Assembly: GCF_000006985.1 (NCBI RefSeq)
Contig: NC_002932.3
Coordinates: 1,103,109-1,167,108 of the forward strand
From: Chlorobaculum tepidum TLS
GTDB taxonomy: Bacteria; Bacteroidota; Chlorobiia; Chlorobiales; Chlorobiaceae
Reading direction: 5' to 3'
DNA length: 64,000 nt
Positions 14,653 to 37,688 of the stretch are shown here, in pieces. The translations under genes were made by a program, and so were the position numbers. Under the pieces are notes generated by a model, which was not told the origin of the DNA, ran no database searches, and saw nothing but the letters and a program-made list of their open reading frames with translations. The stretch's first letter is position 1; every line of letters starts with the position of its first letter.

Positions 14653-15189
14653 ATGACCGATTTCGAGTGGAAAAGCAACTATCTGAAATCACACAAGCTC
14701 AAGACACTTGGCGTCATAATCGTGCTGGTGCTCAGGTACCTTTACACCTCGCTCTTCATCTACGGCTTCGTCCACAAAATCATCCACGGCTGGATGTGGA
14801 GCGACATTCTCGCCCATCACTTCACGAAACGGCTGCACGAACTGCTTGCCACGGCCTCGACGTCCAGCTCCTTTGAAGCGACCGTCGCCGTGTGGCAGGC
14901 CTCATATCTGGAGCACTTCGCCCTGCCGCTGGTGATGCCCATCGCCTGGATTGTCACCATCGGCGAGCTCGCCATCGGCATCGCGCTGCTCTTCGGCGTC
15001 ACGACCCGCATCAACGCAGCCTTTGGCCTCTTCATGCTGCTCAACTTCGCGGCTGGCGGCTACTACAACCTGACCATCCCGCCGCTGGTCGCCATTTCGA
15101 TACTGCTCATCGTGCTGCCGACAGGCCACTGGCTCGGCCTCGACCGCAGCCTTAACAGGAAATATCCGGAGTCACCATGGTTCAGATAG
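14653..15189 (+). CDS. DoxX-family integral membrane protein
   Basis: A 178-residue protein with about four hydrophobic helices (roughly 18-40, 88-110, 113-130 and 140-160), matching DoxX/TQO-small-subunit-like proteins. The segment AWIVTIGELAIGIALLFG followed by TTRINAAFGLFMLLNF is typical of the family. Many DoxX proteins have unknown function; some associate with thiosulfate:quinone oxidoreductases or thiol redox systems, which would suit a sulfur oxidiser, but nothing here proves it. Its stop lies 12 bases inside the next gene. Confidence 0.82.
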   Translation: MTDFEWKSNYLKSHKLKTLGVIIVLVLRYLYTSLFIYGFVHKIIHGWMWSDILAHHFTKRLHELLATASTSSSFEATVAVWQASYLEHFALPLVMPIAWIVTIGELAIGIALLFGVTTRINAAFGLFMLLNFAAGGYYNLTIPPLVAISILLIVLPTGHWLGLDRSLNRKYPESPWFR

Positions 15190-35583: not shown

Positions 35584-36768
35584 ATGCACTCACTCTACCT
35601 CAAACCAAAAGAACACCGGCGGCTGGTCAGCGGCCACCTGTGGGTTTTCAGCAACGAGCTTCGGGAGGTGCCGCGTGACATTGCCGCCGGAGAAACCGTT
35701 CAGCTCTTCACCCACGACGGACGTCTGCTCGGCGCGGGGTTCTTCAACCCCCAGTCGCTGATCGCCTTTCGCCTTCTGACGAGGGGCGAAGAGCAGCCTG
35801 ACCGCGACTTTTTCCGACGCAAACTGCTCGAAGCGCTGAAGCTGCGCGAAAAAATCTACCCCGAAAGCGAAACCAACGCCTGGCGGCTCGTCCATGGCGA
35901 GTCGGATGGACTACCGGGGCTGGTGATCGATCGCTTCGACCGAGCCTTCGTGCTGCAATCATTTTCCGCCGGTATCGACCAGCACCTGCCGCTTTTCTGC
36001 GAACTGCTCCGGGAACTGTTCGATCCTAAAGCGATCGTGGTGAGAAACGAGTCGCCGCTCAGGGAGCTTGAGGGGCTGCCGCTCTACCGCGAAACCGTGC
36101 TCGGCGAAAGCAGCGACATGCATCAGGAGATCCGGGACAGCGGCATCAGCTACCGGGTCAACATCCTTGAAGGCCAGAAAACCGGTTTTTTCCTCGACCA
36201 GCGCGAAAACCGGCGGCACATCCGGAAATACGCCGCCGGCGCGGATGTACTTGACGTGTATACGAATGATGGAGGATTCGCGCTCAACGCCATGCATGCA
36301 GGTGCAAAATCAACCACCATGGTCGATATTTCCCAGGAGGCGTTACAACGCGCCGAGCAGAACGCCCGAACGAACGGGTTCGGAAACTTCTCGATCGTGG
36401 CTGCAGATGCATTTGAGACTCTTGGACAGCTCAGGCATGAAAACCACACTTTCGATCTGGTGATCCTTGATCCACCAAGCTTCACCAAAAGCCGCAAAAC
36501 CGTGCCGACAGCCCTGAAAGCCTACACGAAGCTCAATCGTCTCGGTTTGCAGCTCGTCAGGAATGAGGGATATCTGGCGACAGCCTCCTGCTCGCACCAT
36601 GTTTCCGAAGAGGATTTCCTCGCGGCCATTCACCTTGGAGCAATGCAGGCGGGCAAACATCTGCGACTTATCAGCCGCGCCGCACAACCGCCGGACCATC
36701 CGGTGCTGCTCGCGATGCCCGAAACGAGCTATCTCAAATTTGCCTGTTTCTATGTGACAAACCTGTAG
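35584..36768 (+). CDS. rlmI: Class I rRNA (cytosine-C5) methyltransferase, RlmI-like
   Basis: A 394-residue protein with an N-terminal PUA domain (about 1-75, [16 protein letters not shown]), a middle domain, and a Rossmann SAM domain with [27 protein letters not shown], and the catalytic LDPPSFTK. This is the RlmI/YccW family that makes m5C1962 in 23S rRNA. The usual tail with [11 protein letters not shown] is present. The specific rRNA site is assumed from the family. Confidence 0.9.
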
Positions 36769-36975
36769 CTAACCTAAAAAAAGCGACTTAAACATTTATC
36801 TATAGACAAAATCTGTGACATGACCCATATAAAGCGGGAGTAGTCCCGTAAAGAATTTTCGTCATTTCAACGAAAAAAAAATTATGAAATTTCAGCAAAA
36901 CCCACAAAAAAAGGCGGAAATACGTCACCGACTCAATAAAGTGAAGACAATTCACAAAAAAAAATGATTTCCGTA
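36769..36975. other. AT-rich intergenic stretch upstream of the candidate small RNA
   Basis: About 200 bases with many A-runs and no credible reading frame. A small hairpin GCGGGAGTAGTCCCGT is present near 36834. Nothing else is recognised. Confidence 0.5.
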
Positions 36976-37003
36976 TTGCAAATTCACTTTGCTTATCTAT
37001 ATT
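36976..37003 (+). promoter_or_regulatory. Predicted sigma-70-type promoter of the candidate small RNA
   Basis: TTGCAA (36976-36981) and TATATT (36998-37003) are separated by 16 bases, close to the sigma-70 consensus. A start near 37010 would fall just before the first hairpin. No open reading frame follows before a strong terminator. Confidence 0.5.
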
Positions 37004-37009
37004 TGCTCT

Positions 37010-37095
37010 GAGTAAACTATGTAATTGACGCCCGTTAATTCACATAGTTTACATGTGCAGCATGATGTAAAGGGGTACGTCATGCTGCTTTTTTT
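37010..37095 (+). ncRNA. Candidate small RNA of about 85 nt with two hairpins
   Basis: Predicted from sequence only. After the promoter, GTAAACTATGT (37012-37022) pairs perfectly with ACATAGTTTAC (37042-37052); AATT/AATT extends the stem across one bulged C, leaving loop GACGCCCGTT. A second stem (37057-37069 against 37076-37088) encloses loop AAGGGG and ends in seven T. The CCC of loop 1 and GGGG of loop 2 could pair. There is no start codon with a ribosome site. It does not match 6S, SRP, tmRNA or RNase P as I know them. It ends 17 bp from the stop of the convergent nucleotidase gene. Confidence 0.55.
37057..37095 (+). terminator. Strong Rho-independent terminator of the candidate small RNA
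   Basis: GCAGCATGA (37057-37065) and TCATGCTGC (37080-37088) pair perfectly, TGTA/TACG extends the stem, and seven T follow directly. The T-run is on the forward strand only, and the nearest forward gene ends about 290 bp upstream. Confidence 0.88.
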
Positions 37096-37112
37096 ATATG
37101 CTCCTGCCATTT

Positions 37113-37688
37113 TTACGTCACGAACGCTTTTATCATATCATACACGTCCTGCCATGAAGCGGCTCTCAGCTCTTCGATATGCCGGTTTGTGCTGTTTCCG
37201 AAACAGATGGTAAAAAGTCCTCTGCCTCGTAACTGCGCCACATTTTCCGGCGAGTCCTCGATGTAGATGTCTGCACCAACCTGCGTCTTCTCTTTTACAA
37301 AGCAGAGATCCCAGTATGGAATACCGTGACTATCGAGCCAGTTGACCGTCTGCTGCACTGCCGTAGCATGAAAATAGTGGATAAAAAGCCGATGCGTAAT
37401 GATGCGGATGCGGAAACCTTCATCCGAGAGCTGGCGCAGATATTTTCGCGCACCAGGAATCGCCTCCATGCTGCTGAACAGCTCTCGCTGAGTCACGGCA
37501 AAACGGTGCAGACTGTCGTATTGGCTCGGGTTCGTGATACCCCATTCGGAAAGCCCCCAGGAGACCTCTTCAGGAAGCTCATCAATCGGTCTTTCAAACC
37601 ATTCAGAGGCAATCTGCCTCATGCGCCCGTAAAAATCGGCGCAAACCCCGTCGAGATCAACGCCAATAACGATACTGTTTTTTGACAT
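37113..37688 (-). CDS. 5'(3')-deoxyribonucleotidase-like HAD protein
   Basis: A 191-residue HAD-superfamily protein of the NT5C (5' nucleotidase, deoxy, type C) family. The nucleophile motif [13 protein letters not shown] is at about 6-18, motif II lies in RIRIITHR, and motif III/IV in [12 protein letters not shown]. The start at 37688 places the HAD motif near the N-terminus; an upstream ATG at 37721 is less likely. It probably removes phosphate from a small substrate such as a deoxynucleotide. It converges on the candidate small RNA. Confidence 0.82.

Follow-up and report, generated by a model that had tools for sequence, protein, structure and literature searches.

In the genome of Chlorobaculum tepidum TLS, we identified a compact gene for a predicted regulatory RNA of 86 nt. 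It lies in a window of 64,000 nucleotides (the whole stretch of DNA analysed, positions 1,103,109 to 1,167,108 of NC_002932.3), and its conservation in related genomes establishes that the element is real, far beyond chance. The loop of its terminator hairpin matches an ACCCCU tag at the starts of two, perhaps three, genes of DNA uptake and recombination, and the RNA thus probably tunes DNA uptake. Based on these sequence comparisons, we consider it fairly probable that this is a stand-alone, trans-acting antisense small RNA that keeps mRNAs for DNA uptake and recombination from being translated and thereby damps natural transformation. Transformation underlies the genetics of Chlorobaculum tepidum, the model green sulfur bacterium, and to our knowledge hardly any regulatory small RNAs have been described in Chlorobi. 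The locus comprises the following features.

35584 to 36768, + strand: upstream neighbour, an RlmI-type SAM methyltransferase with a PUA domain (Pfam PF10672, PF17785)
36956 to 36964, + strand: putative UP-element-like A-tract just 5' of the -35 box, A-rich here in 14 of 14 orthologues
36976 to 36981, + strand: -35 box TTGCAA, in which TTG does not vary among the 14 aligned sequences
36998 to 37003, + strand: -10 box TATATT, invariant in 14 genomes
37010 to 37095, + strand: predicted small RNA of 86 nt, with covariance-model matches in 14 genomes
37012 to 37052, + strand: hairpin 1, with a GCCC tetraloop at 37030 to 37033 and three pairs changed on both sides
37057 to 37095, + strand: intrinsic terminator of nearly invariant sequence, made of hairpin 2 (stem-loop 37057 to 37088, 13 pairs, loop AAGGGG) and T7 (37089 to 37095)
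37071 to 37076, + strand: proposed seed AGGGGU, i.e. the terminator loop and the U of its closing pair, invariant in 14 genomes
37113 to 37685, - strand: downstream convergent neighbour, an NT5C-type 5'-nucleotidase (Pfam PF06941)

A preliminary description, made from the letters of the sequence, had proposed a promoter, two hairpins and a terminator with seven T in an RNA of about 85 nt. Every one of these elements is present. The promoter boxes are separated by a spacer of 16 bp, and the likely RNA spans 37010 to 37095, with its 5' end set from the position of the -10 box and the onset of conservation. The predicted 86-nt RNA folds at -39.7 kcal/mol, compared with a mean of -16.9 for shuffled sequences (z = -7.9), and none of 200 shuffles folded as well. 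For hairpin 1, the proposed 11-bp arms hold and the proposed loop GACGCCCGTT does not: seven more pairs form past a one-base bulge, so that the loop is the GCCC tetraloop. The RNA had also been described as having no reading frame, in agreement with the short frame AUG UGC AGC AUG AUG UAA being devoid of a stop in five relatives; a short peptide was rejected as the product, as the frame is not conserved among relatives. An alternative fold, in which the 3' arm of hairpin 1 pairs with the terminator stem (TTTACAT/ATGTAAA), was discarded as well, since it is disrupted in relatives. Both loops are invariant, and internal pairing of GCCC with GGGU is possible. The terminator stem sequence GCAGCATGA occurs five times in the window (at 15032, 22690, 37057, 37080 and 52247) for 0.9 expected, two of these copies being the two arms of the terminator hairpin.

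Using blastn and a covariance model, we found the RNA in 14 of the 21 genomes of the genus, this one and 13 others, with one strong copy in each and covariance-model E values of 1e-16 to 1e-23. A second match of 27 bits in one genome (G007, L031) proved to be an ordinary terminator. The covariance model, applied to the best first-look candidates so that a very diverged copy could escape, detected no RNA in 65 genomes of the sister genus or in 12 of other families. A search of 84,980 species genomes with the exact core pattern gave matches only in records of Chlorobaculum, Chlorobiaceae and Chlorobiales, and no homologue was detected in viral contigs. In the alignment of 14, the block ACGCCCGTT is invariant, like TATATT and the TTG of the -35 box, and so are both loops; ACATGTGCAGCATGAnGTAnAGGGGTACG is nearly all invariant, and the six bases that separate the -10 box from the RNA start are free to vary. 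Stem conservation among close relatives had been put forward as a check of the element, and the element passed it. Stem pairs are kept in 97.7% of the cells of the alignment, versus 21-44% in controls with the partner displaced by 1-3 columns, and the compensatory changes, which are modest in number as independent events, affect three pairs of hairpin 1 on both sides. Thus, the promoter and stems are conserved, the latter with compensatory changes, the loops do not vary and no reading frame is maintained, all of which bears out the initial view of a compact, stand-alone small RNA gene.

Other conserved blocks were observed in these genomes. One is a non-coding block, GGGTAGCGG(A/G)TACCCCTTTGATGATCGTTCAAAGCTGTCAAGATACAAG, near a gene start on the - strand at about position 1500 of L122 and L126, in C. 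tepidum and G001. Another, ACCCCTATGAAAAGTCTGCTGAATTTAACTATATT, is conserved in L339 (G009), L281 (G018) and L314 (G008) with no conserved long reading frame.

The RNA gene, which has its own promoter and its own terminator, is located outside coding regions between two convergent genes, and its 3' end stops 18 bp short of the stop codon of the opposite gene. The preliminary estimate of about 240 bp from the upstream gene was accurate: that gene ends at 36768, 208 bp before the promoter and 242 bp before the likely 5' end of the RNA. Ten sister-genus genomes were inspected, and nine of them have these two genes next to each other in convergent orientation, separated by a few tens of bp and without the RNA. 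Six RNA-lacking genomes of the genus keep the nucleotidase gene with a different neighbour beside it, corA-like in four of them. When a nucleotidase tree is rooted on the sister genus, the six fall within the RNA-bearing genomes and form the sister group of G007 and G012 (support 91/93). As RNA-lacking genomes are nested within RNA-bearing ones, this tree of moderate support suggests that the RNA arose at the base of the genus and was later lost or replaced.

We searched for complements of both loops in three complete genomes, and then read all the recA leaders of the genus. The AGGGGU loop is complementary to ACCCCU near the AUG of recA, comEA and comM, which fits the earlier proposal of pairing between a loop and C-rich targets. 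The recA start, CATACCCCTATGGAA, is the only start-proximal complement of the terminator loop that recurs in orthologues of the three complete genomes. In an exploratory target search in which the association of RNA and sites reflects one or two evolutionary events, ACCCCT was found 0-13 nt 5' of the recA AUG in 13 of 13 RNA-bearing genomes read and in none of seven RNA-lacking ones. It starts at -6 in nine genomes and at -15 to -19 in four, and in the latter the box is retained despite an AUG located 9-13 nt further downstream. At 12 kb from recA there is a third ACCCCTATG site, which was dismissed because it falls within a coding frame and not at a start.

A survey of the sampled genes identified comEA, which has ACCCCT directly 5' of its ATG in both species and codes for a membrane-anchored helix-hairpin-helix protein of the ComEA type (Pfam HHH_3). 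The box is found 0-1 nt 5' of the AUG, at -6 or -7, in all 11 RNA-bearing genomes read and in none of the seven RNA-lacking ones; five of these 11 have a second ACCCCT about 25 nt upstream, and a twelfth genome (G016) has a ACCCCTATG site where comEA is expected. The recA leaders of the RNA-bearing genomes have a single hexamer in common, ACCCCT, and the same holds for their comEA leaders. For both genes, complementarity between the RNA and an mRNA encoded at another locus is thus conserved. In a further sample of this genome, examined after the hypothesis had been formed, comM was found to carry AACCCCTAC, with 14 nt between the end of ACCCCT and the likely ATG; comF, in the first sample, has no ACCCCT. 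Gene structure, conservation, complementarity, and boxes kept in RNA-bearing and absent from RNA-lacking genomes are all direct results of our computations. A thioredoxin gene also starts with ACCCCTATG in L285 (G001) and L325 (G020), and might be a further target in part of the genus.

To place these matches against the background, this genome was represented by sampled stretches amounting to ~40% of the total. ACCCCT occurs near the start (-35 to +12) of nine of 761 genes (~1%), and recA and comEA are the only ones among them with the box within 2 nt of the start. Across 115 orthologue pairs of two species, a complement is present in both species only for recA and comEA, for 0.06 expected; recA is not independent in this count because its region was deliberately placed in both samples, comEA having entered as its neighbour. 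The same pairs gave two matches for the loop-1 complement (0.20 expected) and none for the linker (0.26 expected). By duplex energy, comEA and recA rank first and second of 330 starts in the second species, where the loop-1 and linker controls rank them near the bottom; in this genome, recA ranks second and comEA 11th of 761. No significant general enrichment of ACCCCT was found at gene starts (five of 399, for a permutation mean of 2.2), and the signal is therefore gene-specific. The predicted pairing between loop and box is short, covering 6 to 10 bp at -11 to -15 kcal/mol, with the sites and the loop predicted to be mostly unpaired at 48 C. The loop-1 complement AACGGGCGT was rejected as a target signal, its sites being scattered and mostly inside genes, with two weak orthologue pairs. 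Near the start of a TorD/NarJ-like gene (MTPLQKAYRYKFLSQCLAYPNEAF..., MTPLQKAYRY...), the samples of C. tepidum (G000) and G002 both harbour CGGGCGTC, the complement of the GCCC-loop region, although this could simply be where the preceding gene stops coding.

The RNA-lacking genomes have C-runs of their own. In five of the seven, recA has CCCC directly before its ATG, and in six comEA has CCCC. Six of them (G006, G010, G011, G014, G017 and G019; L194-L202, L332-L338) have GCCCCATGG at recA and CCCCC..CCGATG at comEA, with neither ACCCCT nor the RNA. Perhaps these runs go with a diverged RNA that has another G-rich loop, or they could be C-rich starts for a reason unrelated to the Chlorobaculum RNA. 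In L198, of the RNA-lacking genome G013, the recA match has one in-frame TGA, which represents an assembly error or a broken gene, and the comEA leader is devoid of a C-run.

Such C-runs at recA and comEA starts in relatives devoid of the RNA are what would be expected if the ACCCCT boxes served another protein or RNA that binds C-rich starts. The RNA would then be a true regulator acting on other mRNAs, for instance through its GCCC loop, or a protein-binding RNA. In line with this, the ACGCCCGTT block varies no more than the terminator loop, and the TorD/NarJ-like pair has a loop-1 complement near the start in both species. However, loop-1 complements are otherwise scattered inside genes, and it is to the other invariant loop that the exact hexamer common to two independent sets of leaders is complementary. 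We regard this explanation as unlikely, albeit the most serious of the alternatives.

Readings that dispense with a trans-acting RNA altogether are harder to reconcile with the locus. The hairpins might belong to a processed 3' UTR or read-through product, as the terminator of the methyltransferase mRNA or a roadblock between the convergent genes, with no function in trans. Their position, so close to the opposite stop codon, would suit this role, but the conserved promoter beyond the upstream gene is the element's own; a mere terminator needs no invariant loops, compensatory first hairpin or invariant -10 box, and the sister genus does without the element. We thus find this reading improbable. 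Still less credible is an element acting as DNA, i.e. a palindromic protein-binding site, a repeat or a mobile element. Hairpin 1 is a near-perfect DNA palindrome, yet its arms vary in sequence and length while staying paired, and a promoter and a strand-specific U-tract are present. The single strong copy per genome also led us to reject a repeat or mobile element.

In the antisense mechanism that we favour, the conserved promoter would give rise to the 86-nt RNA, with its two stable hairpins and its end in the terminator U-tract. The terminator loop, extended by its flanks, would bind ACCCCU at the translation starts of comEA (the DNA-uptake receptor), recA (the recombinase) and probably comM (the transformation helicase). 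Pairing would make the start codon, or else the region bound by the ribosome, inaccessible and so lower translation of the targets, and natural transformation would be damped as a result. We infer that the gene is transcribed, that the loop and boxes physically pair, that the outcome is repression rather than activation, and that transformation is affected. Hfq, the usual helper protein, was not detected in the genome using the PF17209 profile, for which the controls matched; the loop and boxes would therefore have to pair on their own or with the help of a different chaperone. Natural transformability is documented for C. tepidum, which loses recombination when its recA is disrupted (PMC3842273). 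If the proposal is true, C. tepidum has a post-transcriptional switch of natural transformation that is open to testing, and recA is added as a direct target of a small RNA.

No Rfam family was significant at gathering or relaxed thresholds, and the RNA is not described in the open-access literature searched. The best sub-threshold Rfam match was Qrr of Vibrio (RF00378), which has the right strand and span and also a terminator hairpin at its end; its score of 21.1 bits, for a gathering score of 50 (E 0.16), is at chance level, and it was discarded. The CiaR-dependent csRNAs of streptococci are small RNAs with terminator hairpins that act on competence; they are multicopy and controlled by a two-component system. 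Unlike them, the Chlorobaculum RNA is single copy, and it has no sequence match in Rfam. Chlorobi-1 (RF01696) is likewise a candidate structured RNA confined to Chlorobi (PMC2864571), but its covariance model has no match in the window or elsewhere in this genome.

RocR of Legionella pneumophila is its closest working parallel, the likeness being one of function. RocR represses comEA and other DNA-uptake mRNAs, which share a box to which its seed is matched (PMC9977716, PMC9674577). Both are small structured RNAs with a terminator hairpin at the end and one seed for a short box in several DNA-uptake leaders, including comEA. When a RocR-type shared box was looked for, comEA, comM and recA proved to carry ACCCCT, and comF did not. 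The two RNAs differ in phylum, in the proposed Chlorobaculum seed being the terminator loop itself, and in the proposal of recA as a target in Chlorobaculum; RocR works with RocC, a chaperone with a ProQ/FinO domain, and Hfq went undetected in C. tepidum. If true, a second, independent small RNA aimed at comEA would suggest repeated evolution of RNA control over DNA uptake. We lean, with somewhat less assurance than for the antisense role itself, towards a genus-wide small RNA of an Hfq-less lineage that would co-regulate comEA, recA and comM through its terminator-loop seed, and would have been lost together with its sites in one sub-lineage: a counterpart to RocR of separate evolutionary origin, with recA added to its targets.
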